In this document: in pieces, positions 1,456-17,669 of the stretch
How positions within the stretch are numbered: position 1 is the first letter of the stretch
Layout of the letters: every line of letters begins with the position of its first letter
NCBI GenBank assembly: GCA_022548915.1
Contig: JAKZES010000039.1
Span: 1 to 51,252, forward strand
Direction of reading: 5' to 3'
DNA from: Verrucomicrobiaceae bacterium E54
Lineage (GTDB): Bacteria > Verrucomicrobiota > Verrucomicrobiia > Verrucomicrobiales > Akkermansiaceae
Length of the DNA: 51,252 nucleotides
Position numbers and translations under genes: made by a program
Notes under the pieces: generated by a model
Databases searched by the model: none
Told to the model about the DNA's origin: nothing
Seen by the model: the letters and a program-made list of their open reading frames with translations, nothing else

Positions 1456-3030
1456 TCAGTCATTGCCGGTGTATTCGATGCGATCCACCCGCTGGTTGAG
1501 CACCTCGCCGGGGAAACCGGAGGTCGGATTATCGCGGGTGTAGCGGACCCGGAAGTAGTTGCCGACCGTGTCCTCGACGCGCGTCACCGACCACGAAAGC
1601 GCGCCGCCGGGATCCCCCGCTGCGTCGGCCTTCTCCACACGGGCTTCCGCAGTATCCCCGAGGGTGAGAGTCAACCCGGACTTCGTTTCGATTTGCCACC
1701 ATTCAGGGCCATGGTGAAGCTGGCCTCGGGCGGTGATCCGGGCGAAGGAATCCATCTCGGTGCGGTAGACCGAATCCGCCTCGCCATAGACTCCCTCAAC
1801 CAGGACAAGGCGTTCGCCGTTGAAGAAGAAGCGGTCGTTCGGATCGAAATCCACGCCATCGATCATGCCGTCCTTGGCAAGCGTGGTACGGCCGCGGGCA
1901 ATTTGTTGCAATCCGTTCAGCGACCAGCCGAGACCCGCGATGCCGTTCGCTCCATTCGACGAATAGTCGAGGGAGATCTTGGGCTCCATTCCGGCGGTCC
2001 CTTTCGGGATGTCGATCGGAATGCTGTAGGCGGCTGAGCCGTCACCACCCACGGTGAGCGAGCCTTTCAGGGCACCAACCGCGGTGTGCTGCCCGAGAAT
2101 GGTAAGTGGCGGCACGGCACCGACCGGAGGAGGCGTCACCGAGGGAACCACGCCTTCGCCGCCCGAAGGACTCCAGATCGAATCGAGGTAATCCTCCAAC
2201 CAGCTCTTCCCGGTGGCGGGATTGATTTCGTCGCGGTCATAGACGAGAGGGTTCGACCCGTTGGCGGTCTCCCACGCGTCGGGAAGCGCGTCCTTGTCCG
2301 CATCCGGGAAAAGCATGTTGTCGGGGTTCGCGGAAAGATCGTCGACCAATACATCCACCACGTCGCTGCCGTAAAAATCGAGGCTGCTGAGCAGGGCGGC
2401 CCGACCTTCGAAGCCGACATTTGCTGCGGCAAGCTGGCCATCAACGAACAGGTCCCAGACAAGCCGGGCACTGTCGTGCCGCAGGGTCAGTCGGACGTAG
2501 TCCGCAGCACGCGGTTCGACCGGATCGATGGAGAACCCGGGCGCGAGGCGATACCATTCCCCGACCTCCGCCGGATCGGCGGCGTCATCATTTCCGTCAT
2601 AGACCCAGAACTCACCGGCAGCCCCGGCGTCATCGAGCTGGAACGCGGCCTGGCTGCCGTTGACGAAGAGCGAGGCGAGGCTACCTGCGGGATTCGCCGG
2701 AGGCTTGATCCAAAGATCAACAAAAGCAACGGTCTCCACTGGATCCCAGTCGAGCATGCGGCGCAGGCGAGTCTCGCCGAGGCTGGCGGTCTGCCCGACC
2801 CGCAGCGCCTGGCCACCGCCAAGGCCCTCGCCACCGGGACTCACCTCCGCCGTGCCCGAAATCAATTCCCATTCAGAATAGGCGCTGCTGGTTCCCGAAT
2901 CGACCGCATCAAACGGCTGGAAGGTCGGTGATTCAAAATCGACCGGCGGCAGGTACGCCAGGACCGAGGTTCCGAGCATCGAGAGGTTGGCAAGAACTGC
3001 ACCGGTCCAAGACAACCACGGGTTTTTCAT
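1456..3030 (-). CDS. Secreted SpvB/Rhs-family protein, C-terminally truncated
   Basis: The 524-residue product starts with a signal peptide (about 1-25). It continues with a concanavalin/LamG-like region (about 30-235), an Asp-rich Ca-binding-type motif FPDADKDALPDAWE (241-254), a Pro-rich linker, and from about 320 the typical start of an SpvB domain (GSLTVGGDGSAAYSIPIDIP, PKISLDYSSNGANGIAGLGW). SpvB/Rhs/Tc-toxin-like proteins of this type are usually well over 1000 residues, with FG-GAP and YD repeats and a variable C-terminal domain. Here a TGA follows RIEYTGND, and the next codons in frame do not continue the domain. The remnant may be inactive, or may be a stand-alone N-terminal module. 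Two orphan lipoproteins follow downstream. Confidence 0.75.
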   Translation of the reverse strand: MKNPWLSWTGAVLANLSMLGTSVLAYLPPVDFESPTFQPFDAVDSGTSSAYSEWELISGTAEVSPGGEGLGGGQALRVGQTASLGETRLRRMLDWDPVETVAFVDLWIKPPANPAGSLASLFVNGSQAAFQLDDAGAAGEFWVYDGNDDAADPAEVGEWYRLAPGFSIDPVEPRAADYVRLTLRHDSARLVWDLFVDGQLAAANVGFEGRAALLSSLDFYGSDVVDVLVDDLSANPDNMLFPDADKDALPDAWETANGSNPLVYDRDEINPATGKSWLEDYLDSIWSPSGGEGVVPSVTPPPVGAVPPLTILGQHTAVGALKGSLTVGGDGSAAYSIPIDIPKGTAGMEPKISLDYSSNGANGIAGLGWSLNGLQQIARGRTTLAKDGMIDGVDFDPNDRFFFNGERLVLVEGVYGEADSVYRTEMDSFARITARGQLHHGPEWWQIETKSGLTLTLGDTAEARVEKADAAGDPGGALSWSVTRVEDTVGNYFRVRYTRDNPTSGFPGEVLNQRVDRIEYTGND

Positions 3031-6361: not shown

Positions 6362-8077
6362 TTAATAACGCATGGTCACGCCGAAGTGCGTCCGGCTCCC
6401 CCGCCCGTCCAACCACCATCCGTGGTCGGCCCACAGGTCCACGTATTCGCTGACCCTCATCCGGATTCCCACGCCCGCACCGGACACCGAGGTGGTGGCC
6501 CCGCCATCGTTGCGGAGCCAGGCGTGATCGAAGAAGCCAACCCCGCGAACCCGAACCTGATCGCCCCCCCGCCACTCGGGACTGACGACCTCGAAGCTTC
6601 CCTGCACGCCTCCGTCCGCGATGAATTCGCGCTCGCCAATCCCGCGGACGGAGCGGTAGCCACCGGCGGCAAACTGCTCCGACGGCAGCAACCGGGAGTC
6701 CGCCCACTGCGCCGCCCCACGCAGGCCGAGCCGCCAATCCCCCCCGGGCGACCACCAGCCCTGGCCGGACAACCGCCCGAGCACGTAGCTGGAGTCCGCT
6801 CGTGGATCATAGGCCCTGAAGTCCGCGTCATCATTTCCGTCGACCAAGCCACCGGGCGATGCCAGCAAGCTGGCTGCCAGGACCACGCCGGCATCATCCC
6901 AGCGCCGCTCGGCCCGGTACGAAAGCTTCCCGTGAAGCAAGCGAACCTCACCCGGCGAAAAGGCCCCTCCCCCGAAGAGCACGAACTGGTCGGTCGCCTT
7001 GAGCTCGAAGCCACTGGTGAACTCCTGCTTCCACCGCCCCAACCTCGGCAGGATCATCCGATGTCCCATCGCGACGGACCACGAGGTGCCTTCGTTGTCC
7101 AGAATCCCGACCGCCGACGGCGTCCGGTTCTCCACCCTCGCATAAGCGGCATCGATTTGGAGGGTTTGCTGCAAGCGATGAAGCGGGATCTCCCAACTGA
7201 GCGCGTGGGCGTGAAGCGACGAAACGGGAATCCCGAGGACCGTCTGCCACGCGATGATCTGCTCGCCCCGGGTCATCCCGACCGCGCCCAGAAGAAGACG
7301 TTCCCTGCCGGCGAGATCGGGCCCGCTGTTCTCATAGCCGAGACTCACCCGCCATGGCCGGCTTTCCTCCAAACCGATCAGGATGTCCGCGCTTGCAGGT
7401 TCAAGCCCCGGCGACACGAAGAGCCTCGGTTGCCGGAACGCACTCCGCCCGAACCAATCCAACTGCCGGTCAAGGTCCCCACGTCGAAGCACCTCCCCTT
7501 CGACCAGCGAGATGCCATCTTGAATCAACTCGGCGTTTCCATACCGCGGCCTCGCGACGCCCACCCGTCCGATCCGGCCGACCTCGACGAACAACACCAA
7601 CAGGCCGCCCTCGAAGTCCTGCCCGAGCGCATCCACCGCCACCACGGGATAGCCCTGACGATCGTAATGAATGAGGATCAGATCAATGACCTCAAGCAGT
7701 CGCGCTTCATCGAGAGCGGCCCCGAGAACCGTCTCCAGCCGCCCCGCCAGCCGGTCCGGCGCGGGCAGAATCAGCGTCGATTCCACCTCCAAACCCGGCG
7801 AAACTCCCTCGATCCGCCCGTCCTCCTGCCACGACCGGAGCCGGATTTTTGACAATTTCTCCGCCAGACGGATGCCGCGCCGGTCACCCGCCGGTTCGCC
7901 CGGACGAACCTCGGGCAGACTCTCGACCACCTCGCCCTGGGGAACCTCGGGCGCAATTCCGGGAATCAGATCTTCGCCCCGGATCCGCTCCGCAGGAGTC
8001 AACACCAACACACCTGCCGCGAGGACGATACAGGAAAGCCCTCTACTCCAAGCATTCGCTCGCCCCTGATTTGCCAC
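6362..8077 (-). CDS. ShlB/FhaC-type two-partner secretion transporter (TpsB)
   Basis: The 571-residue product has an N-terminal signal segment (hydrophobic about 14-28), a POTRA region (about 55-235) and a 16-strand Omp85-type barrel. The hallmark L6-loop motif appears as YRSVRGIGERE, followed by GGVQGSFEV. It ends in the aromatic outer-membrane signal FGVTMRY. TpsB proteins fold in the outer membrane and export a beta-helical TpsA carrying an N-terminal TPS domain. The start is a GTG at 8077 and no alternative ATG lies before the signal peptide. The gene is divergent from a secreted subtilase, and a short TpsA-like gene lies beyond the subtilase. The usual tpsB-tpsA operon is therefore split by a protease. 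Confidence 0.88.
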   Translation of the reverse strand: MANQGRANAWSRGLSCIVLAAGVLVLTPAERIRGEDLIPGIAPEVPQGEVVESLPEVRPGEPAGDRRGIRLAEKLSKIRLRSWQEDGRIEGVSPGLEVESTLILPAPDRLAGRLETVLGAALDEARLLEVIDLILIHYDRQGYPVVAVDALGQDFEGGLLVLFVEVGRIGRVGVARPRYGNAELIQDGISLVEGEVLRRGDLDRQLDWFGRSAFRQPRLFVSPGLEPASADILIGLEESRPWRVSLGYENSGPDLAGRERLLLGAVGMTRGEQIIAWQTVLGIPVSSLHAHALSWEIPLHRLQQTLQIDAAYARVENRTPSAVGILDNEGTSWSVAMGHRMILPRLGRWKQEFTSGFELKATDQFVLFGGGAFSPGEVRLLHGKLSYRAERRWDDAGVVLAASLLASPGGLVDGNDDADFRAYDPRADSSYVLGRLSGQGWWSPGGDWRLGLRGAAQWADSRLLPSEQFAAGGYRSVRGIGEREFIADGGVQGSFEVVSPEWRGGDQVRVRGVGFFDHAWLRNDGGATTSVSGAGVGIRMRVSEYVDLWADHGWWLDGRGSRTHFGVTMRY

Positions 8078-8307
8078 GGCAAGAAATTAACGATGAAGGG
8101 CGATCGACCCAAGCTCAAAACCAGCACATCCAAATAGTTTGGAAAGCCAGCATTCAAGTGTTCTTAATTTTAAAATAGACCAGTTATTCGAGCTTCATAC
8201 ATCTGTAAGTTTAAACAACTTATCATAAGGTACGAAGGAACTAGTAATTTCTCGACGGCACCCTATCTGAAAGTTATTCACAACCAAAACCAACTTCCTG
8301 CAGGGGC
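8078..8307. promoter_or_regulatory. AT-rich divergent promoter region, TpsB / subtilase
   Basis: These 230 bases separate two divergent genes and are sharply AT-rich relative to their GC-rich coding flanks. No gene was seen. On the plus strand the 11-mer TCTGTAAGTTT (8202-8212) is followed by AT-rich sequence. The same 11-mer occurs in the promoter-side region of the TpsA gene on its coding strand (11085-11095). Exact promoter positions cannot be fixed from sequence alone. Confidence 0.5.
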
Positions 8308-9933
8308 ATGCATACAGGGAAATTTCTACCATTCGCCGCACTCGCGGCCGCCAGCCTTACCACTACGGTCGCCGTAGCAAAAGACCCGGCAACCACCGTG
8401 ATTCCACACGGTGTCATCGAAGATTCCGGCTGGGCCCTCGCCCGCCTGAACGATGGAGCGAACCCATCGAGCGGAACGCTGGACTTCCGCTACCCGGAGT
8501 CCAGCCGTCCGGTGCGCCTCTACCTCATCGACTCGGCGGTCGACAACACGAGCGGCTGGTTCGACGACAACGCCAACCTCACCTTCGTCCAGGGAATTCG
8601 CGTCGCGAGCGGCACCTCCTATGATCCTGGTAGCGAGACCGCCTCACTCGACCACGGCACCCGCATGCTGTCGGTGATCGCGGGGCCGGAGTTCGGAGTG
8701 GCCTGCGGCGTTCCGGTCGAACTCTACTCCTACGATATCTATCCGAGCGAAGGCTCGAACATCGCGCTTCTGGTGAGCGCGGTGGGACAGGCGACAGCCC
8801 GACATGAGATCGACAAGCTCTCGAACCCGGACTTGCTGGGCGTCATCTGCATCGCCAACGGAACCGGCGACCCGACACGCAGCCCGACCCTTCTCGCAGC
8901 CATCGACCAGGCGCTCGGCCAGGGCCTCGTGGTAGTGGTGTCGGCCGGCAACGACAACGCCGATGCACTCAATGGTCACAACCCGGCTCAGGTGATCAAT
9001 CACGTCAAGGACGCCTACCTTCCTGCAGCCTACGGATCTTCACGCGACGGCCTCATCACGGTCGGCGCCTCGACCCAGGACAATGCAAAATCCCCGACAT
9101 CGAACTTCGGAGCCGCGATCGACGTCTGGGCTCCCGGCGTCGAAGTCCCCACCTTCGACACGGCGAATCCGAGCGGCGGTCAGTCCTCCCCGATGAACGG
9201 AACGAGTCCGGCGGCGGCGATGGTTGCCGCCGCAGCGATCGCCGAACTCTCGCGCCAGCCCGGGCTCGATCCCGCCGGCGTGGAAGACGAGCTGAAGTCG
9301 CGGCTTTACGCCGCCGGAAGCGTCTCCATCGTTCAGATCGATGACGATCTCGATGCCGACGGCTCGGTGGATGAGTTGGAACGCTTCTTCGGCTATCCGA
9401 TTGATGATGCGACCAGCGCGCCCCCGCCGGTGGGTTTCGTCGCCTCCGGCTCGACCTCCGAGCTTTCCTTCACCATCGATGCCGACCTGTGGCAGCCCGA
9501 CAACCCGCTGGAACTCTCGGACTCTTCGGCATGGCGACTCCTTGGCTCTTCGGACCTGATCAACTGGGTCGTCGTCGACCCGGTGCTCGTCATTGGATCC
9601 GAGGCCGACGGTCGCCTTCCGGTGACAGCGGTCGCATCGAACGAATCGGTTCCGCCTCCCGCAGCCCCGACCGACCCCGAAACGGCACAGACCACCAATC
9701 CGGAGGCCACCGCACCGAAGGCCTATGTGGCCACCCCCGAGGAGATCATGGCGACCCAGGAACTCATTCGCCAACTCTTCGAGTCCACTCCCGAATTGTA
9801 TCCCGAATGGTATTGGGAAACCTTGGGCGTCGCCTACGAGACCCAGACCGTGCCTGGCGAGGTGTCGCTGACGGTAACCCCCACCTCTTCGCAGCGGGTC
9901 TTCTACCGCATCGAGGTGATTCCCAACCCCTGA
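8308..9933 (+). CDS. Secreted subtilisin-like serine protease (S8)
   Basis: The 541-residue product has a signal peptide (about 1-24). Its catalytic domain has the full S8 triad: Asp75 in LYLIDSAVDN, His116 in LDHGTRMLSVIAG and Ser300 in MNGTSPAAAMVA, with oxyanion Asn215 in VVSAGND. The GTSPAAA block departs from the usual GTSxAAPxV. After it come an acidic EF-like stretch (DDDLDADGSVDELE, about 347-360) and a roughly 170-residue tail rich in Pro, Thr and Ser, ending in a strand motif RVFYRIEV. No propeptide domain is obvious. It is divergent from the TpsB gene and converges on the TpsA-like gene with 8 bases between stops. That makes it a candidate processing or regulatory protease for the exported TpsA. 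Confidence 0.85.
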   Translation: MHTGKFLPFAALAAASLTTTVAVAKDPATTVIPHGVIEDSGWALARLNDGANPSSGTLDFRYPESSRPVRLYLIDSAVDNTSGWFDDNANLTFVQGIRVASGTSYDPGSETASLDHGTRMLSVIAGPEFGVACGVPVELYSYDIYPSEGSNIALLVSAVGQATARHEIDKLSNPDLLGVICIANGTGDPTRSPTLLAAIDQALGQGLVVVVSAGNDNADALNGHNPAQVINHVKDAYLPAAYGSSRDGLITVGASTQDNAKSPTSNFGAAIDVWAPGVEVPTFDTANPSGGQSSPMNGTSPAAAMVAAAAIAELSRQPGLDPAGVEDELKSRLYAAGSVSIVQIDDDLDADGSVDELERFFGYPIDDATSAPPPVGFVASGSTSELSFTIDADLWQPDNPLELSDSSAWRLLGSSDLINWVVVDPVLVIGSEADGRLPVTAVASNESVPPPAAPTDPETAQTTNPEATAPKAYVATPEEIMATQELIRQLFESTPELYPEWYWETLGVAYETQTVPGEVSLTVTPTSSQRVFYRIEVIPNP

Positions 9934-9941
9934 GGCTTGGG

Positions 9942-11033
9942 TCACCGGTTTGTCCGGGTGCCGCCGCGGACCCCACCGAAGAATGAGCTCCGGCTCGCCA
10001 GAACCGGCTTCCGCTCGTTCCGGGCCGTCTGAATTTTCTCCTTTTTCCGGTCGCGCATTGAGTCGGCCGAGGCACTCATCGGAGCTGAATAAGTAATCCT
10101 TCTCCGGTCGCTGACCGCCGAACCATCGGGGCGCTTGAGCGCCGGGATCCCCAGGCTGGCATCCCCCACCACCCCCGGGGCATCGCCGTCGATATGAGGG
10201 CGGATGACGGCGCTTACCTCGTTGAATAAGCCATCGAAGATTGAGTCGTTCGCGATAAAGCCTTGGGATTCATTGGAGATCCGGCCGGACTCGCCCACCC
10301 CGAAAAAGACCTGGGCGTTGCCCTCGCCGATCACTCCATTGTTGAGCACCTCCGCTCCGGCTGAAACCTCAATCTTGGGTGCACGAAGGCTCCCTTCATT
10401 GAAAACCGTTCCTGCGAGGGAGTTCTGACTGAGCCGACGTTCTCCCGCGCCAAGGATCTCGATATCACTTCCACCCCCGACCATCACACGACCGTTCGGG
10501 GCATCAAGAGAGGCTCCTGAGAAGATTCTCACATTCTGCCCTGCCACCGTCACATCGCGGGCCGTGGCTTCAAGGCTACCAAAGACAAGCACGTCTCCAC
10601 CACTAGCACCGCTCAGAGTGAATCCAGCGCCGCCGGCGAAGAGCCCGGCATCGACGCCGAGCGTTGCCAGCGTCACGGATTCGGCCGTGATGGACCCGGT
10701 GATGATCAAATTACCATTCGGCGCGAAGAACCCGAGATTTCCGTTCGCGGTGATGTCACCGGCGATCAAATGGGTGCCGGCCCCATTGAGGTAGTTGGTG
10801 ACCGTGTCCCCGCCGACAAAGTTGAAAACCAACTCGTCGTTTCCGGCGAGATTCATCTGACCCCAGTCGAAGACACTGTCGTCGCTGATCGTGAAAATCG
10901 TCTGCGAGCCATCGGCCGTGGCGACCGTTTCCCAAGTGGCGGTTCCAGGTGTCGTCAGGACAAAATCCTGCGCCAAGACGCCGCTGCAGAGCAGCAGAGA
11001 CAAGCTCGGCAATGATCGAAGGGTGTGGGACAT
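9942..11033 (-). CDS. Short filamentous-haemagglutinin-like exoprotein (TpsA-like)
   Basis: The 363-residue protein begins with a signal peptide (MSHTLRSLPSLSLLLCSGVLA). It is then built of beta-helix-type strands with TPS-domain features: FNFVGGDTVTNYLNG, FFAPNGNLIITGSI, SLDAPNGRVMVGGG, and repeated VFNEGSL.A / VLNNGVIG.G turns. It is far shorter than classical TpsA adhesins or haemolysins, which reach thousands of residues. The C-terminal 60 residues switch to a basic tail (RDRKKEKIQ, RNERKP, SFFGGVRGG). The pairing with the TpsB gene 1.9 kb away is by family. The subtilase between them may cleave it. It could be a carrier or sensor, not an adhesin. Confidence 0.72.
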   Translation of the reverse strand: MSHTLRSLPSLSLLLCSGVLAQDFVLTTPGTATWETVATADGSQTIFTISDDSVFDWGQMNLAGNDELVFNFVGGDTVTNYLNGAGTHLIAGDITANGNLGFFAPNGNLIITGSITAESVTLATLGVDAGLFAGGAGFTLSGASGGDVLVFGSLEATARDVTVAGQNVRIFSGASLDAPNGRVMVGGGSDIEILGAGERRLSQNSLAGTVFNEGSLRAPKIEVSAGAEVLNNGVIGEGNAQVFFGVGESGRISNESQGFIANDSIFDGLFNEVSAVIRPHIDGDAPGVVGDASLGIPALKRPDGSAVSDRRRITYSAPMSASADSMRDRKKEKIQTARNERKPVLASRSSFFGGVRGGTRTNR

Positions 11034-11400
11034 CGGAAAGTAAGGGTGGGACAGCCGATGCAGAAGCTAGGCTTAAATTTAAGGAAACTTACAGAATTGG
11101 GAAGCGAATTCTAAAATTTATTCAGATTCGGCCGACACCCGCGGATTCCCCCCAGAACCATTGCGGATGTCGGCCGATCGCTGAACACGTGCTGCAATCC
11201 CTTGGATTCCAGCCCATGAAAGGAAGTTCCGTCGCCGGGTGCCGACTGAGGCCTCCCCCCGGAAACCCCAGTGACCCGAGCTGTCGAGAACAACCTGTCA
11301 TCACCACTCCCAATCGCACCTGAAATTCCTGATTTCCAAAATTCATTGAAAAGTTCATGATCAAGGTGATCCCCGCAGCCATGGGGCTGCCATTCCGCTG
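11034..11400. promoter_or_regulatory. AT-rich divergent region, TpsA-like / CHAT
   Basis: No conventional gene was seen in these 367 bases. The left third is AT-rich and holds AAACTTACAGA (11085-11095), the complement of an 11-mer also found upstream of the subtilase. Just before the CHAT start lies a short hairpin, GCAGCC (11375-11380) with GGCTGC (11385-11390), in place of a clear ribosome binding site. A 14-codon reading frame (see 11357) also overlaps the CHAT start. Both flanking genes are presumably transcribed outward from here. Confidence 0.45.
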
Positions 11401-11401
11401 A
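11357..11401 (+). promoter_or_regulatory. Possible leader mini-ORF overlapping CHAT start
   Basis: An ATG at 11357 opens a 14-codon frame, MIKVIPAAMGLPFR, whose TGA stop (11399-11401) overlaps the CHAT gene's ATG as TGATG. An internal ATG at 11381 gives MGLPFR in the same frame. No good Shine-Dalgarno sequence precedes the CHAT ATG itself, so coupling by reinitiation is plausible. The sigma-like gene downstream has a similar arrangement at 14140-14160. A frame this short can arise by chance. Confidence 0.25.
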
Positions 11402-14043
11402 TGCGCTTCGTGTTCATATTCCTCGCAATCTGGCTGCCTGCTGCGGTGGGAGCGGTGGATTTTGAACGTCCGGCCGAAGCGGAGGCCCAGCTCAAGGAGC
11501 TGGTCGGGGAATGGGAAGCCGCTTGGGAAGCCGACGCCAACCCCGAGAACGCGATCGGACTCGCCACCAGCCTTCACGCACTCGGGGTGGTTGAGCGCCA
11601 GCTCGCACGGACCAATGCCGCCATCAGCCACCTCCGGAGGGCCTGCGAACTTCTCGAGCCCCACTCCGCGGAACTCTTGGCCGAGGCCCGCGAAGCGCTG
11701 GCGGTCGCGCTTCAAGATCGAGGCGATTTCCAGGAGAGCGAGGCCCTGCTTCGGGCCGTGCTGGACTCCCGCCGGAGGTCCGGGACGGAGGCCCCCCTGG
11801 CGCTTGCCCTGACCCTCGACCACCTGGCCCTGTCCCTGCTGCTGCAGGGCAGTTACACCGAGGTGCTTCCGCTTCTCGAGGAGGCTTCCGCCCTTCTTTC
11901 GGAAAGCCATCCCGCGGAGCAGGCAAGGGTCCTCGGCCACCTCGGCCGCTACCACCACACCCTCGGCAGCCACGCCCGGGCGATCGATTACTTCGACGAG
12001 GCGCTCGCGACCGACTTCCAGCAACCGGAGTTGCGCCTTTCGCTCCGGTCCCAGCGGGCCCTCGCCCAACTGCGGCTCGGCCTCACCGATGAGGCCGTGT
12101 TGGCGACCGAGAGCGTCGCCGACGACGCGCGCACGCTCCTGGCCGATACCCCGATCCGGGCCATCCCCTACATCAACAACATGGGCGCACTGGCGCTCTC
12201 GCTCGGCCAGCCCGGGGAGGCGGCTCAAGCCTTCCGCGAAGCGCGAGCCTTGATCACCGAAAGCCTCGGCGATCAACACCCCGCGCTGGCCGGCATCCAC
12301 CACAATCTCGGCGTCGCCCTCCAGCAGGAAGGGTTGCTCGGGCAGGCGAGGGAAGAACTGCTCGCCGCGCGACGGGTCCAGAAGCTGCATCTTCCCGAAA
12401 TCCATCTCCGGGTGGCCGAGACCCGGCGCGAACTGGCGGTCAACGCCATCCTCGACGACCTGCCGGATGCCGGAACGATCGCGCGCGAGGCCACCGCCGC
12501 CGGCCTCGCCTTGCTTGAGCGCCTCGTCGAAAGCGGCAGCGAGACCGAACGCCTGAACTTCCTCGAACGCTTCGACCTGATATCGCTGCCCTGCGAGATC
12601 GGCGATGCCCGGCTGATCGCCGACACCCTGATCGCGAGCAAGGCCCGGCTGCTCGACTCCCTGATCGGTGCAAGCCCGTCGACCGCCCCCCGCTGGCAGG
12701 ACCTCTCGGCATCGCTACCCCCCGGCTCCGCCTTCATCGACTTTTGCCGCTACCAATCGGTGCGGGTCGGCGAGGCGGAACGCTACGGAGCGATTCTGCT
12801 GGTGGCGGGCGGCGAGCCCCAATGGATCGAGCTTGCCGATGCCGATGATCTCCAACGCTGGCTGGGAGCCTTCAAGGAAAGGCTCGACTGGAATGCGGCG
12901 CAGCTCGGCGGTGATGATTCGCCGGCCCCCGCCCTGACCCTGGCCGGCATCCTGGGTTTCCTTTACCAGCAGTTCTGGGCACCCATCGATGACCGGATCC
13001 CGGGTGAAATCCAGCATCTCGCCGTCTCCCTCGACAGCACCTCCCACTTCCTCCCGCTTCCCGCCCTGCTCGACCACGAGGGCCGCACCCTCTGCCACCG
13101 CTACAAGCAGATCACCCGGGTCGCGAGTGGCCGCGATCTCCTCGATGCCCGGGAGCTGCCCCCAATCGCGGATGTGCCATGGACGGTGCTCACGATTTCC
13201 GACTACCCCCGGACACCGGAGGCGCCCACCGGGCAAAGCCGTCTCGGCGAAATCCTCGGTCGCCTGGGCCCGCTCCCCGGGACCTCAAAGGAGGCAAAAG
13301 CCATCCGCAAGGTCGCGCCCCGAGGATCCCTCTTTCTGGAGGATGACGAGGTCACGGAACCCGCGGTGACCGCCCTCCCCGGGAATCCGGGTGTTTTGCA
13401 CTTCGGCGGACACGCCTTCTTCGTCGGCGACACCCGCTCGGGGGCGCCGGTCGACTTCGACCTGGAATCCGACCAGCTCCTCGCCAGCGGCCTGGTGCTC
13501 CATCGCGGACTGACCACGGTGAGCGGAGTCCCCGGCGAAACCCCCGATGACGATCTGCTGTTCCCCGGGGAAATTGCGCGGCTCCCGCTGGGCCAGACCC
13601 GGCTGGTCACCCTTTCCTCGTGCGACTCCGGCCTCGGCACCTCGGTGGATGGCGAAGGCGTGCTCGGCCTGCAGCGAGCCTTCGCCACCGCCGGTGCCCG
13701 CGAGGTGGTGGTCGCCCTGTGGCCGGTCTCCGACCTCTCCACCCCCGATTTCATGCGCCGCTTCTACGAGCTCGCCGTCCACTCCGACCGCTCGGCCCAG
13801 AGCCTGTGGCAGGCCCAGGCCGAGCGGATCCCGTCACCCGACGATCCGGACTTCGAACAGGCAGTGCTCCGCTACGCTCCGTTTTTCATGACCCAGCACC
13901 ACCCTCTGCAGACAGGCGGCCCGATCGAACCCGCCAAACGACGATCCCCGCTCTGGCTCGGGCTGCTTGGCGTGATTCTCCTGGCAATCATCGCCGCGAT
14001 TCGACTCATCCGCAGGCTCCGGGCTCGCCCCGAAAAGCTTTAG
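11401..14043 (+). CDS. Membrane-anchored TPR-CHAT caspase-like protease
   Basis: The 880-residue product has a signal peptide (MRFVFIFLAIWLPAAVGA), a long TPR-like helical array (about 45-400, with repeats such as ALGVVERQLARTNAAISHLRRA and HHNLGVALQQEGLLGQAREEL) and a C-terminal CHAT domain. The predicted catalytic pair is His671 (LHFGGHAFF) and Cys741 (TLSSCDSGLG), followed by GVLGLQRAFATAGAREVVVALWPVSD, the classic CHAT end. One TM helix (about 851-868) and a basic tail close the protein. Signal peptide plus C-terminal TM predicts the TPR and CHAT domains lie in the periplasm, unlike most CHAT effectors, which are cytoplasmic. CHAT proteins are caspase/separase-like peptidases, often activated through their TPRs. 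The neighbouring TPS and sigma-like genes suggest a signalling or processing role. Confidence 0.88.
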   Translation: MRFVFIFLAIWLPAAVGAVDFERPAEAEAQLKELVGEWEAAWEADANPENAIGLATSLHALGVVERQLARTNAAISHLRRACELLEPHSAELLAEAREALAVALQDRGDFQESEALLRAVLDSRRRSGTEAPLALALTLDHLALSLLLQGSYTEVLPLLEEASALLSESHPAEQARVLGHLGRYHHTLGSHARAIDYFDEALATDFQQPELRLSLRSQRALAQLRLGLTDEAVLATESVADDARTLLADTPIRAIPYINNMGALALSLGQPGEAAQAFREARALITESLGDQHPALAGIHHNLGVALQQEGLLGQAREELLAARRVQKLHLPEIHLRVAETRRELAVNAILDDLPDAGTIAREATAAGLALLERLVESGSETERLNFLERFDLISLPCEIGDARLIADTLIASKARLLDSLIGASPSTAPRWQDLSASLPPGSAFIDFCRYQSVRVGEAERYGAILLVAGGEPQWIELADADDLQRWLGAFKERLDWNAAQLGGDDSPAPALTLAGILGFLYQQFWAPIDDRIPGEIQHLAVSLDSTSHFLPLPALLDHEGRTLCHRYKQITRVASGRDLLDARELPPIADVPWTVLTISDYPRTPEAPTGQSRLGEILGRLGPLPGTSKEAKAIRKVAPRGSLFLEDDEVTEPAVTALPGNPGVLHFGGHAFFVGDTRSGAPVDFDLESDQLLASGLVLHRGLTTVSGVPGETPDDDLLFPGEIARLPLGQTRLVTLSSCDSGLGTSVDGEGVLGLQRAFATAGAREVVVALWPVSDLSTPDFMRRFYELAVHSDRSAQSLWQAQAERIPSPDDPDFEQAVLRYAPFFMTQHHPLQTGGPIEPAKRRSPLWLGLLGVILLAIIAAIRLIRRLRARPEKL

Positions 14044-14139
14044 TTTTAAGCATTTGAAGCTAATTTTGAGAACTTTTGAACGGTTTGGCTGAAAATAAAT
14101 CTAAATTGAATGCTTGAACTCTCTTTATTTTAATATTTC

Positions 14140-14160
14140 ATGGTGGCGTTCCAGCCATGA
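14140..14160 (+). promoter_or_regulatory. Possible leader mini-ORF overlapping sigma-like gene start
   Basis: ATG at 14140 opens a six-codon frame (MVAFQP) whose TGA overlaps the next gene's start as ATGA (14157-14160). The preceding bases (about 14044-14139) are AT-rich. They carry no clear ribosome binding site for the 14157 start, so translation by coupling is conceivable. It parallels the arrangement before the CHAT gene but may be chance. Confidence 0.22.
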
Positions 14161-15083
14161 CCCCCGCTGTTTGTCCCGAACAGTTGGAACGTTGCTGGCA
14201 GGCCTGCTGGACTCGTGCCCGCCGGCCTGTCGAAGGCGTTCTGATTACCGAAGAAGAGGCCGAGCGCATCGCCGAGCAGGCGATCCGCAATGCGTCCTTT
14301 GAGTTCGAGTCGTTTGACGATGAAGTTGCCTTCACCGCCCGTGCGATCGAGATTGCGGGGGAAGCGACGCGCGAATTGGTCGCCGCCAAGCGTCGCAGCG
14401 ACGCGGATCCACAGCTGCACCACGATCCTGAGGATCGACGCTACGAGCGGAATCTGGATCTCGACCGGCTGCAGCGCTACGACCCGGATCGTGGCTTCAA
14501 CGACCGCGAGTGGAACGGCCTTCCCGACCTCCTGAAGCCGCTCGCCCTCCGCACACTCCAGCGCAAGGGCATTTCCGGCCACGATGCCGAAGAGGTGTTC
14601 ATGGATGCCCTCGTCGAGCTCGCCAAGGTGCGAAACTCTGACAACAAGGCGCCAATCCTCGATCCGACCGTCTTCGAGGAGCTCATTCCGCTCCACCTCC
14701 GGATCGTCGGCTTCCGGGCGATCGATTGGCAGCGGCGCCGCACCACGCTGAAAAACCGGCCCAACGACGGCGAGAGCTTTGATGCGCTCACCGACGACTC
14801 CGAGCGCCCGCTGCAGTTCGAGGATCCATCGGCGGATCCCGAAGCGCCGACTTTCGAGCACATCTACAAGGAATGCCGGGAGGTCCTGGACTCCGACGAG
14901 TGGGATCTCGTCTACACCCTCTTCGTCGCCCAGGCGGCGACCATCCAGGAGTTGATCGAAGAACAGGATTTCTGCCACCGGTACGGCCTCAAGCGCTCCG
15001 CCTCTGCCTCGACCCGCCGCCGGGTCCTGAACGAGCGGATCCAGACCGCGTTGGAAAAAATTCGAAAAACTTTGGTTGATTGA
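14157..15083 (+). CDS. Divergent ECF-like sigma factor
   Basis: The 308-residue protein has no signal or TM segment. After an N-terminal extension of about 120 residues comes a sigma-2-like helix block: GISGHDAEEVFMDALVELAK matches the DAEDLVQ..FL region, and IVGFRAIDWQRRRTT resembles region 2.4. The C-terminal part (EWDLVYTLFVAQAATIQEL, then RSASASTRRRVLNERIQTAL) fits a sigma-4 helix-turn-helix. It resembles the ECF-type factors frequent in Verrucomicrobia and Planctomycetes but is divergent, so another DNA-binding role is possible. It lies 113 bases after the CHAT gene and 36 bases before a one-TM protein, the usual sigma/anti-sigma order. Confidence 0.6.
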   Translation: MTPAVCPEQLERCWQACWTRARRPVEGVLITEEEAERIAEQAIRNASFEFESFDDEVAFTARAIEIAGEATRELVAAKRRSDADPQLHHDPEDRRYERNLDLDRLQRYDPDRGFNDREWNGLPDLLKPLALRTLQRKGISGHDAEEVFMDALVELAKVRNSDNKAPILDPTVFEELIPLHLRIVGFRAIDWQRRRTTLKNRPNDGESFDALTDDSERPLQFEDPSADPEAPTFEHIYKECREVLDSDEWDLVYTLFVAQAATIQELIEEQDFCHRYGLKRSASASTRRRVLNERIQTALEKIRKTLVD

Positions 15084-15119
15084 AAACAGTTACGAATTTC
15101 TACGATTGGAGGACTAGCC

Positions 15120-15710
15120 ATGAAACTTGAACTTTCACCCCCACTTGAGTCAATCCGCCGGATCCTCGAGGGAAGTCTGCGCCTGAAGCCCGACGAGCCC
15201 GTTCCCAGCGTACCCGCCGGACTCCTTCACGATCTCAACCAGCGCTTCGCAACGCAACGCATCGTGATCGAACCGAGCCGCCAGCGGCGTTGGCTCGCCA
15301 GCCTCCGCGGCCTCGTCCGGACTCCCGCCTTCGGCTTGGCGGCCGCAGCGCTCATCGTGTTCGGAGTTCTGACTCCCATCGTCGGTCATGACCGTGGGCG
15401 CACCAACGCCGAATCGTTCAGGGGCGTTTCCACCCCGGTCAGCGCCCCCACCATGATCGTTCTCGTCGACAGTCCCGCGGGACTCGCCGACACCCTCGCC
15501 CACTCCCGCTCCTTCGAGGCCGACAGCGTGGTGGCCGTGACGGACCTCGCGTCCGCCGACCAGATCGCCGCTCCCAAGGTGGTGCTCAACTTCACCGATG
15601 CCACCCTCGCCGCGATCAATGACCAGGGCTATGTGGTGCACACCGCGCCCCTGCCGAAAAGCATCGCCGAGCTCAGCCTTCTGGTGGCCGACGCCCTGAG
15701 CCACCTCTGA
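15120..15710 (+). CDS. Single-TM protein, possible anti-sigma factor
   Basis: This 196-residue protein has a cytoplasmic N-terminal segment (about 1-65, helical, with basic patch PSRQRRW), one TM helix (about 69-89, TPAFGLAAAALIVFGVLTPIVG) and a periplasmic domain of about 105 residues. The latter has a Rossmann-like strand pattern (TMIVLVDSPAGLADTL, SVVAVTDLASADQI, KVVLNFTDATLAAINDQGY). A strong ribosome binding site (GGAGG, 15108-15112) precedes the ATG. Position and topology suggest an anti-sigma partner of the preceding protein, sensing an envelope signal. There is no ZAS zinc motif (HxxxCxxC), so this is inference from context. Confidence 0.6.
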   Translation: MKLELSPPLESIRRILEGSLRLKPDEPVPSVPAGLLHDLNQRFATQRIVIEPSRQRRWLASLRGLVRTPAFGLAAAALIVFGVLTPIVGHDRGRTNAESFRGVSTPVSAPTMIVLVDSPAGLADTLAHSRSFEADSVVAVTDLASADQIAAPKVVLNFTDATLAAINDQGYVVHTAPLPKSIAELSLLVADALSHL

Positions 15711-15750
15711 TCCTGGCGGACTTTCCCACTTGGAAGGCGACGCGGCATCC

Positions 15751-16632
15751 ATGCAGACTGTGTGCATGCCGCGCTTGGCCCTGCTCCAGTCCCGGGGATT
15801 TCCCACCAAAGACGGTGCCTTCGAGCACCATGAGTCACTGATCCGAAAGGCCGCGTCCGGGGGATCCGCGATCATCGCGACCCAGGAGCTCTTCCTCACG
15901 CCCTACTTCTGCACCACCGAGGATCCGGCGCGCTTCGACCTCGCGGATCCGATCCCCAACGATTACACCGACCGGCTCGGCGCGCTTGCCGCGGAACTCG
16001 GGGTGGTCATCGTTTCATCCCTGTTCGAGAAACGCGGTGCCGGGGTGTTTCACAACACGGCGGTGGTCCACGATGCCGATGGCACGATGCTGGGCTGCTA
16101 CCGCAAGAGCCACATCCCCCAGGACCCCGGGTTCGAGGAAAAGTTCTACTTCACGCCGGGCGATTCCGGCTGGCCGGTGTGGTCCACGCGCCACGGGCGC
16201 ATCGGGGTCCTCGTTTGTTGGGACCAGTGGTTTCCGGAGGCGGCCCGCCTGATGGCCCTCGGAGGTGCCGAGATCCTGCTTTACCCCACGGCCATCGGCT
16301 GGCTCCCGAGCGAGAAGGACAGCCTTGGAAAGGCCCAGCACTGCGCCTGGGAGACCGTCCAGCGCGGTCACGCGGTGGCCAACGGCTGCTTCGTCGCCGC
16401 GATCAACCGGGTGGGCACGGAAGACGGCACCGAGTTCTGGGGACAATCCTTCATCGCCAATCCCTACGGCGAGGTCGTCGCCCGCGCCGAAACCGGCGAC
16501 GAACAAGTCCTCATCCACGAGATCGACCTGGGTCAGGTCGAAGAGTTCCGGCGCATCTGGCCGTTCTTCCGGGATCGCCGGATTGATGCCTACGCCGGGT
16601 TGGGCCAACGCTGGACAGCCGGAACGCCATGA
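15751..16632 (+). CDS. aguB: N-carbamoylputrescine amidase
   Basis: AguB hydrolyses N-carbamoylputrescine to putrescine, CO2 and ammonia. The nitrilase-superfamily triad is visible: Glu46 in ATQELFLTPYFC, the Lys in YRKSHIPQDPGF, and the Cys in LVCWDQWFPEAAR. The substrate-typical FYFTPGDSG and WPFFRDRRIDAY blocks are also present. Length (293 aa) is right for the family. I take the ATG at 15751; an ATG at 15766 (MPRLALLQ) is equally close to the conserved core, whereas a TTG at 15730 adds only unconserved residues. The stop overlaps the aguA start (ATGA at 16629), so the two enzymes are made together. Confidence 0.94.
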   Translation: MQTVCMPRLALLQSRGFPTKDGAFEHHESLIRKAASGGSAIIATQELFLTPYFCTTEDPARFDLADPIPNDYTDRLGALAAELGVVIVSSLFEKRGAGVFHNTAVVHDADGTMLGCYRKSHIPQDPGFEEKFYFTPGDSGWPVWSTRHGRIGVLVCWDQWFPEAARLMALGGAEILLYPTAIGWLPSEKDSLGKAQHCAWETVQRGHAVANGCFVAAINRVGTEDGTEFWGQSFIANPYGEVVARAETGDEQVLIHEIDLGQVEEFRRIWPFFRDRRIDAYAGLGQRWTAGTP

Positions 16633-17669
16633 CCCCGGCCGAACTGGGGTTTGCCATGCCCCCGGAATGGGCACCGCAGGAGGCGGTCTGGCTCTCGTGG
16701 CCGGTCCCCGATCCGCGTCACTGGGGCGGCTCCAAGCGGGACCGCATCGAGGCGGGGTTTGCCGAAATCGCGGCGGCCATTTCGGCGTTTGAACTCGTGC
16801 GGATCAACGCCACCTCCTCGAACCACCAGCGCATCCGCTCCCTGTGTGAGACCGCCAGGGCCGTGCCGGAGCGGATCGAGCTCTTCGATCATGCCCACGA
16901 CGATGTGTGGTGCCGGGACCACGGCCCGATCTTCGTGCGGAATGGTGCCACCGGCGAGGTCGCAATCACCGATTGGGAGTTCAACGCATGGGGTGGAAAA
17001 TTTCCCCCGTGGGACTCCGACAACCGGATTCCGCGTCGGGTGGCCGACTCGCTCGGCCTGCGCCGCTTCGAGGCCGGAATGGTTCTCGAGGGCGGCGCAA
17101 TCGAGGTCAATGGCCGGGGCCAGCTCCTGACCACCGAGGCGGTTCTTCTCAACCCCAACCGCAACCCCGGCCTGAGCCGGGACGACATCGAGTCGCGCTT
17201 GCGGGATCACCTCGGCGTCCGGGAGATTCTGTGGCTGGAAAAGGGCATCGAAGGTGACGACACCGACGGCCATGTCGATGACCTGGTTCGCTTCACCGAC
17301 GACCACACGCTGGTAGCCGCAACCTCGGCCAGTTCGCCGGACCGGGAAACCCTCGCCGCCAACCTGGAGCGACTCCGTGGTTTCCGCGGTCCGGACGGTC
17401 GGTCGTTCCAGATCCACGAGATCCCGCTTCCCGAGTCCTGTGAGGTCCCGGGCTGGCGGCTCCCGGTACTACCTGCATCGTATGTGAACTTCCTCATCGT
17501 GAACGGCGGGGTGCTGGTCCCGACCTTCCGGCAGAAGCGCAACGACGATCGCGCGCTCGGGATCCTGAAGGAACTGTTCCCAGACCGAACCGTCGCCGGA
17601 ATCGACTGCCTCGAACTGGTCGAGGAAGGTGGCTCGCTGCACTGCATCTCGCAGCAACAGCCGGCGTAG
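16629..17669 (+). CDS. aguA: Agmatine deiminase
   Basis: AguA converts agmatine to N-carbamoylputrescine and ammonia, the step before AguB. The 346-residue protein shows the PPE.A.QEAVWLSWP start, the DDVWCRDHGPIF motif, the ITDWEFNAWGGKF block, EGDDTDGHVDD, and the C-terminal GGSLHCISQQQP with the catalytic Cys339. Together with aguB it gives the arginine-decarboxylase-linked route to putrescine. No speA is visible in the window. The gene ends convergently, six bases from a VWA-domain gene on the other strand. Confidence 0.95.
   Translation: MTPAELGFAMPPEWAPQEAVWLSWPVPDPRHWGGSKRDRIEAGFAEIAAAISAFELVRINATSSNHQRIRSLCETARAVPERIELFDHAHDDVWCRDHGPIFVRNGATGEVAITDWEFNAWGGKFPPWDSDNRIPRRVADSLGLRRFEAGMVLEGGAIEVNGRGQLLTTEAVLLNPNRNPGLSRDDIESRLRDHLGVREILWLEKGIEGDDTDGHVDDLVRFTDDHTLVAATSASSPDRETLAANLERLRGFRGPDGRSFQIHEIPLPESCEVPGWRLPVLPASYVNFLIVNGGVLVPTFRQKRNDDRALGILKELFPDRTVAGIDCLELVEEGGSLHCISQQQPA

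Follow-up and report, generated by a model that had tools for sequence, protein, structure and literature searches.

Two-partner secretion (TPS, or type Vb) systems such as FhaC/FhaB, HxuB/HxuA and HMW1B/HMW1 pair an exporter of the ShlB family with a TPS-domain protein. Both parts recur in a six-gene locus at positions 6362-15710 of contig JAKZES010000039.1 from Verrucomicrobiaceae bacterium E54 (GCA_022548915.1), where they are joined to genes for a CHAT protease, a subtilase, a sigma factor and a protein with one transmembrane segment (the one-TM protein). All coordinates given here are forward-strand positions in this 51,252-nt contig, which was analysed as a whole and is referred to as the window. 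Besides its gene company, the locus differs from the described TPS systems in its candidate substrate, a protein of 363 residues, here called the dwarf TpsA, which has little beyond a TPS domain and a conserved SFF tail; its predicted fold matches the secretion domains of HMW1, HxuA, EtpA and FHA. Proteolysis and sigma factors have each been connected with TPS proteins elsewhere. Stepwise proteolysis of the Bordetella TpsA protein FhaB is described in the available part of one account (PMC8263021), and in the PUMA3 system of Pseudomonas aeruginosa (VreA/VreR/VreI) an extracytoplasmic function (ECF) sigma factor is linked to a TPS pair, as it is here (PMC2729926). PUMA3 uses a TonB-receptor-like signalling protein and counts type II secretion genes among those it regulates, and the available part of that paper names neither a CHAT protein nor a subtilase (PMC2729926); a Pfam scan of the six proteins of our locus found no TonB-dependent receptor.

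For the proteases, the nearest parallel is the type III-E CRISPR Craspase (Csx29/Csx30/CASP-sigma), in which Csx29, a CHAT protease with tetratricopeptide repeats (TPRs), cuts Csx30, the inhibitor of CASP-sigma, according to the part of the paper available (PMC10028731). This is a precedent for a TPR-CHAT protein acting on a sigma inhibitor, and both systems combine a TPR-CHAT protease with a sigma factor whose putative inhibitor serves, or would serve, as the substrate. They differ in that our CHAT protein looks like an envelope protein and our inhibitor candidate is a membrane protein, set apart from Csx30 by description, and no RNA-guided part lies among the six genes. The Craspase partner Cas7-11/gRAMP was not found among the eight window proteins scanned, the rest of the genome not having been searched for it. 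The same source names, in its available part, RseA/DegS and RsiW as cases where an envelope-stress-sensing protease cuts a membrane anti-sigma factor (PMC10028731). Our locus, for which we propose the same scheme, differs by its dedicated CHAT and subtilase genes and by the TPS pair. In the RseA/DegS and RsiW pathways the first cut is made on the periplasmic side. Among the matches listed in a search of the open-licence PMC literature, no paper brought CHAT together with TPS, subtilase and sigma, and none presented a sigma family with such an N-terminal part, an SFF-tailed dwarf TpsA, or a one-TM family with a single invariant arginine. The six-gene set is apparently undescribed, each of its families being already known.

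A conserved six-gene module

The six genes form a real, conserved module. The initial annotation had placed six open reading frames in this region, and all were present: a ShlB/FhaC-type outer-membrane exporter, TpsB, with a GTG start (6362..8077, minus strand), an S8 subtilase (8308..9933, plus), the dwarf TpsA (9942..11033, minus), a TPR-CHAT caspase-like protease (11401..14043, plus), a divergent ECF-type sigma factor (14157..15083, plus) and the one-TM protein, a probable anti-sigma factor (15120..15710, plus). The alternation of divergent and convergent pairs it described was also evident, with TpsB/S8 and TPS/CHAT divergent and S8/TPS convergent at a distance of 8 bp; the CHAT, sigma and one-TM genes are co-directional. 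Pfam matches to ShlB, to Peptidase_S8 (E 1.2e-23) and to CHAT (E 6.8e-49) plus TPRs bore out the FhaC-type exporter, the serine protease and the TPR-bearing CHAT protein. For the TPS, sigma-like and one-TM proteins of the window there was no Pfam match of their own at E<=0.05; the small TpsA-like beta-helix protein is backed by relatives and fold, the sigma-like factor by fold and weak profile matches, and the one-TM protein by topology and a weak NCBIfam anti-sigma match. Rare co-occurrence in relatives had been named beforehand as the refuting test of this combination of known families. The genes do co-occur, the opposite outcome, and for that reason the claim of a six-gene module is well supported.

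The named near relatives are Haloferula, Luteolibacter and Roseibacillus, together with metagenome-assembled genomes labelled Akkermansia or Verrucomicrobiia. Of the 18 genus genomes, 17 have the sigma protein, 17 the TPS protein and 16 CHAT. The primary sigma locus, viewed in 20-kb neighbourhoods, held all six genes in 10 of the 17 sigma-positive genomes; in six more (G001, G002, G003, G005, G010 and G013) the members missing from the locus sit elsewhere, and all six genes occur somewhere in the genome in 16 of the 17. In G016, whose contig ends at the locus, CHAT was not found. Additional sigma loci with some or all of the module genes were present in G003, G006, G012 and G017.

In a sample of 288 genomes from the order, which we take to be Verrucomicrobiales, 30 carried the sigma protein (12 of 50 genera, four families). 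A phylum sample of 387 genomes gave no full-length sigma match outside the order; partial matches in the remainder, at E>=6e-6, lay mostly across sigma region 2. In hand-compiled lists with thresholds picked after the scores were seen, and with the best 3 CHAT, 4 TpsB, 7 TpsA and 8 sigma candidates scored per genome, a TPS protein whose match extended through the tail was found in 28/30 sigma-positive genomes and, among the matches listed, in 0/258 of the others. The profile met only the N-terminal TPS domain in those 258 genomes, mostly that of long exoproteins, again among the matches listed. Module-type CHAT (E<=1e-115) was found in 29/30 versus 2/258 genomes, and TpsB scoring above the first generic match in 26/30 versus 1/258, the latter among the matches listed. 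Recall in the sigma-positive genomes is partly circular, alignments A4, A5 and A7 having been built mostly from sigma-linked loci. Absence elsewhere is not circular, nor are the unlinked TpsA copies of G104, G107, G209, G219, G041 and G145 or the unlinked CHATs of G041, G045, G056, G076, G104, G107, G209, G219, G231, G256 and G283, none of which is a row of A4 or A7. Presence of S8 (A6) and of the one-TM protein (A8) is known from the fetched loci.

The Fisher values for co-occurrence, about 1e-31 or lower, ignore phylogeny, and 12 of the 30 sigma-positive genomes belong to one genus, as might be expected if the six genes were no functional unit at all and simply neighbours held together by descent. 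This we regard as highly improbable. Counted by genus, sigma-positive versus the rest, the association holds for TpsA (11/12 versus 0/38) and TpsB (9/12 versus 1/38), both among the matches listed, and for CHAT (11/12 versus 2/38), and it does so across four families and in further copies. The tailed dwarf TpsA and the module-type CHAT track the sigma gene also where the genes are scattered, and the genus neighbours nadC and aguB had no match in the 19 order-level loci L108-L126. Two genomes stood out as clear exceptions. G230 (89% complete, 7% contaminated) has CHAT and TpsB on one contig and no sigma match, and G117 (L126), with a weakly matching sigma member, the most divergent of all, has no one-TM neighbour and no module-grade TpsA, CHAT or TpsB. 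On the G230 contig (contig 252, L138) the CHAT is full-length and of module type, and no sigma, TpsA or S8 match was seen there beside it and TpsB.

Gene arrangement varied among the distant loci. The genes of L123 run in one direction as sigma, one-TM, TpsB, S8, CHAT and TpsA, and those of L125, from the other of two distant families, keep this order and single direction except that TpsA stands ahead of CHAT; L124 and L117 have all six genes in mixed directions. The one-TM matches of L123-L125 were weak (23-24 bits), and the genus TpsA profile missed the TpsA of L117 and L125, both of which were placed by eye first. A leave-one-out profile test recovered them (E 4e-37 and E 2.5e-14, respectively), and reversed sequences gave none. 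Order-level loci also gave 'TpsA' matches on the other strand from the sigma gene, which were rejected as artefacts. Away from the sigma locus, a divergent TpsB/S8 pair occurred in 11 fetched loci (L139, L140, L146-L149, L151-L154 and L156), that of L140 lying on the sigma contig about 20 kb away; S8 adjoins CHAT in L139, L140, L141 and L155, and TpsA directly adjoins CHAT in L134 and L135, whereas in L133 a single gene separates the two. The sigma protein had no match in the plasmid collection PLSDB, and, going by its incomplete gene table, the combination was absent from the 8 neighbourhoods viewed, among 115 and 25 matching records, of CHAT or TpsB relatives on plasmids from other phyla. 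In the G114 module, TpsB is followed by an 824-aa secreted protein (L117, 12758-15274), presumably of a serine-hydrolase/beta-lactamase-like fold.

Exporter, dwarf TpsA and the two proteases

The window TpsB exceeds the cut-off of PF03865 (ShlB; E 3.1e-14), placing it in the ShlB/FhaC family of barrels, with a POTRA_2 match that stays below its cut-off (E 0.01, 16.1 bits against 24). It was the only ShlB-family protein found in a PF03865 search of the window genome (G000). For its putative partner, the Pfam TPS model (PF05860) matched 7 of the 31 aligned members at E<=0.1 (best 6.3e-14) and not the window member. The AlphaFold2 model of the dwarf TpsA (pLDDT 80.7) shows a beta-helix to about residue 272 and then a low-confidence tail, that is, a bare TPS domain at residues 24-272 or so followed by a disordered basic tail. 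With Foldseek, the first 17 PDB rows were all TPS-domain proteins, eight of them at E<=0.001 (best 2odl, 1.1e-7). No large passenger lies behind the TPS domain in these 363 residues, the confident model stopping near 272, and because the canonical passenger is missing we describe the pair as a TPS-like variant and not as a canonical TPS system. When ten module genomes were searched with PF05860, a separate long exoprotein appeared in G004 only; since PF05860 misses most dwarf TpsAs, divergent exoproteins may escape it too. On present evidence from these sequences, nine of the ten would have no evident TpsB partner besides the dwarf TpsA.

Conservation of the dwarf TpsA reaches into its tail, where shuffling and alignment singled out a C-terminal motif, R-S-S-F-F-G, at residues 348-353 (9975..9992, minus strand). 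In the general form [RK]x(0-2)[SAG][FL]F it falls within the last 45 residues of 39 of 41 TpsA proteins versus 1.07 expected after shuffling, a control that, like the other shuffles here, counts related sequences as independent; the count omits near-duplicate loci, as well as the TpsA of L041/L095, which a contig end cuts. The two tails without it are those of L027 (QASSLF) and L124. The 31-row alignment contains one invariant Trp and nine columns at least 90% conserved, including the second Phe of the tail. The heptamer GTCCCAC was observed about 20 nt upstream of the TpsA start codon (about 11034-11052 in the window) in 12 of the 18 genus upstream regions listed.

A conserved tail suits a processing or retention signal, and the locus could accordingly be read as a secretion locus with its own regulator, in which the sigma factor simply drives the TPS genes, the subtilase and CHAT do no more than mature or degrade the dwarf TpsA by removing its tail, and the one-TM protein is an ordinary anti-sigma factor released by other proteases. 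The available part of PMC8263021 has periplasmic proteases and the surface protease SphB1 trimming Bordetella FhaB, and the TPS pair to which the P. aeruginosa ECF factor VreI is linked lies among the regulated genes in the available part of PMC2729926. Such a locus, however, would lead one to look for a large passenger, and none is seen; the one further PF05860 exoprotein in ten module genomes is that of G004, by a model that misses most dwarf TpsAs. It also leaves unexplained the single invariant arginine of the one-TM protein, described below, and we consider this reading rather unlikely.

Both proteases keep their catalytic residues. The CHAT dyad, H671/C741, is invariant in a 15-row alignment (15/15). 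The subtilase has D75, H116 and S300; across its own 15-row alignment S300 never varies and H116 reaches at least 90% conservation. D75, in a stretch where some rows are truncated, does not rank among the columns at that level. Judged by eye, the window subtilase has a signal-peptide-like start, as does the window CHAT, which ends in a hydrophobic helix. The CHAT proteins of L114, L117 and L124 were seen, again by eye, to have lipoprotein-like starts. The anchor of CHAT is thus apparently a C-terminal helix in the genus and a lipoprotein-like N-terminus in distant relatives, and because the starts are of these two kinds the protein probably acts outside the cytoplasm.

This location bears on whether the locus might instead be a conflict or death module, in which CHAT is an effector protease set off through an envelope sensor, for example by a phage or a rival, and the sigma factor spreads the alarm. 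A caspase-like CHAT domain ranks among the key effector domains of bacterial defence in the available part of PMC10907252, and the spread across the order is patchy (30/288 genomes). PADLOC, however, gave no match for any of the six proteins at E<=0.1, and an identity as a defence system was rejected on this result; moreover, CHAT is near-universal in one genus and probably acts on the far side of the membrane. Taken with these points, a conflict function appears quite improbable.

Sigma factor, anti-sigma candidate and proposed working

The product of 14157-15083 fits a divergent ECF-type sigma factor, as judged mainly from its predicted model. Its NCBIfam sigma70-ECF match (E 0.0053) was below the cut-off, and Sigma70_r2 was matched by 10 of the 34 aligned members at E<=0.1 (best 0.0011) and not by the window member; this alignment (A3) omits the L117 sigma, which has an unread stretch (X), L118 and near-duplicates. 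All 50 PDB rows listed for the model were sigma factors or chains of RNA polymerase initiation complexes, over residues 99-308 or thereabouts. Sigma2 and sigma4 folds of ECF type are present in the model, with no sigma3 domain between them, only a low-confidence linker (residues 201-226). An N-terminal extension of about 98 residues is conserved and barely covered by the listed PDB rows. A search of genus upstream regions (15 TpsB, 10 S8, 20 TpsA, 15 CHAT and 21 sigma) for a shared dyad (a 5-mer, then a gap of 14-19 and a 4-mer, common to three or more of the five gene classes) found none, nor did its reversed control.

The one-TM gene adjoins the sigma gene in 37 of the 41 sigma loci fetched by place (the window, L023-L042, L108-L126 and L131). 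Of the four without it, L118 and L120 are at contig ends and L119 (G041) and L126 (G117) are not. Hydrophobicity and charge predict a cytoplasmic N-terminus, a transmembrane segment at about residues 70-88 and a periplasmic C-terminus. The NCBIfam anti-sigma model NF052375 was matched weakly by 10 of 32 one-TM proteins (best 2.1e-4), the window protein scoring E 7.8e-4 and 19.5 bits against a cut-off of 100, and FecR, the type of regulator expected in PUMA3-type cell-surface signalling, by none of the 32 at E<=0.05. Zinc anti-sigma (ZAS) factors form a subfamily with the motif HxxxCxxC; in our alignment (A8), reduced from 42 to 32 sequences by omitting the truncated L121 and near-duplicates, no His or Cys was found among the columns at least 90% conserved. 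On this evidence the one-TM protein is probably an anti-sigma factor. Its sole invariant column over the 32 sequences, which go down to 15% identity to that of the window, is Arg101 (codon 15420..15422, plus strand). In the window this residue belongs to an FRG motif that begins 12 residues after the transmembrane segment, and the pattern [FLMVIT]R[GSDN] starts 6-19 residues past the segment in 32/32 sequences versus 3.7 expected from shuffled periplasmic parts; variants at the site include IRS (L114) and TRG (L121). Arg101 looks as the fixed point of a first cut would, making it a candidate cleavage site, and it may instead be kept for a structural role. A common protease for the TpsA 'RGG' and the one-TM 'FRG' was considered and dropped, RGG being missing in distant families.

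Apart from the sigma factor itself, every component has the look of an envelope protein, and the presumed sigma partner would span the inner membrane. The simplest reading, which we infer from the gene set, its co-occurrence, the predicted folds and topology and the conserved residues and motifs, is that an anti-sigma factor undergoes regulated proteolysis by proteases dedicated to it. The ECF-type sigma factor would probably be held inactive by binding to the one-TM protein. The periplasm would contain the TPR-CHAT protease, anchored to a membrane, and the secreted subtilase, and TpsB in the outer membrane would export the dwarf TpsA, its TPS domain followed by the disordered tail ending in RxSFF. 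An envelope protease, CHAT being favoured and the subtilase possible, would cut the one-TM protein at the juxtamembrane FR|G, and this cut would start destruction of the anti-sigma factor and free the sigma factor to act on a regulon that is likewise conjectural. As the signal we propose the passage of the dwarf TpsA through TpsB, be it export, jamming or maturation, which either the TPRs of CHAT or the subtilase would sense by way of the SFF tail; this export state is favoured as trigger because there is no other obvious sensor and because the tail is so strictly kept. The initial annotation had proposed that CHAT and/or the subtilase process an envelope substrate and that the sigma factor responds, which fits this anatomy, with Arg101 and the TpsA SFF tail as candidate sites. 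A six-part envelope-signalling module, with the TPS pair governing the cut that frees the sigma factor, is to our minds tenable, if somewhat short of an even chance.

A narrower version, in which the dwarf TpsA is a messenger and not an adhesin, its export state being read via the SFF tail by a periplasmic CHAT that cuts the anti-sigma factor at the invariant arginine, we think unlikely. If true, it would represent a new class of envelope signalling, with a secretion pathway turned sensor and a periplasmic CHAT as the first-cut protease of a sigma pathway. The broader signalling module, if true, would bring CHAT proteases that act outside the cytoplasm into protease-gated sigma signalling and give a role to TPS pairs whose substrate is a TPS domain only. 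The locus defines a system of six strongly co-occurring genes in one bacterial order, and its predictions are narrow, resting on one arginine, one tail motif and one catalytic cysteine.

Noncoding features and flanking genes

Between the TpsA and CHAT genes lies a locus-specific hairpin (11128..11177) with 15-nt arms that are 93% complementary, a covarying stem and a fixed loop. In two relatives the stem is changed on both sides and the loop TTCCCCCCAGAA is fixed; of the 18 genus genomes, 3 contain the loop pattern, each in a single copy. Rfam recognised no known RNA in the window at gathering scores.

Housekeeping genes flank the module, nadC at one end and aguB at the opposite one, and, as we take it from the window sequences, birA and aguA as well. 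The aguB gene (N-carbamoylputrescine amidase-like) follows the one-TM gene at a distance of 19 bp, on the same strand (region 15730-17669), and is near the module in 13 of the 17 primary genus loci; the gene that follows it within this region is presumably agmatine-deiminase-like. At 1456-3030 on the minus strand, the window encodes a secreted protein that stops early at 524 aa and whose N-terminal part we take to be SpvB/Rhs-like.

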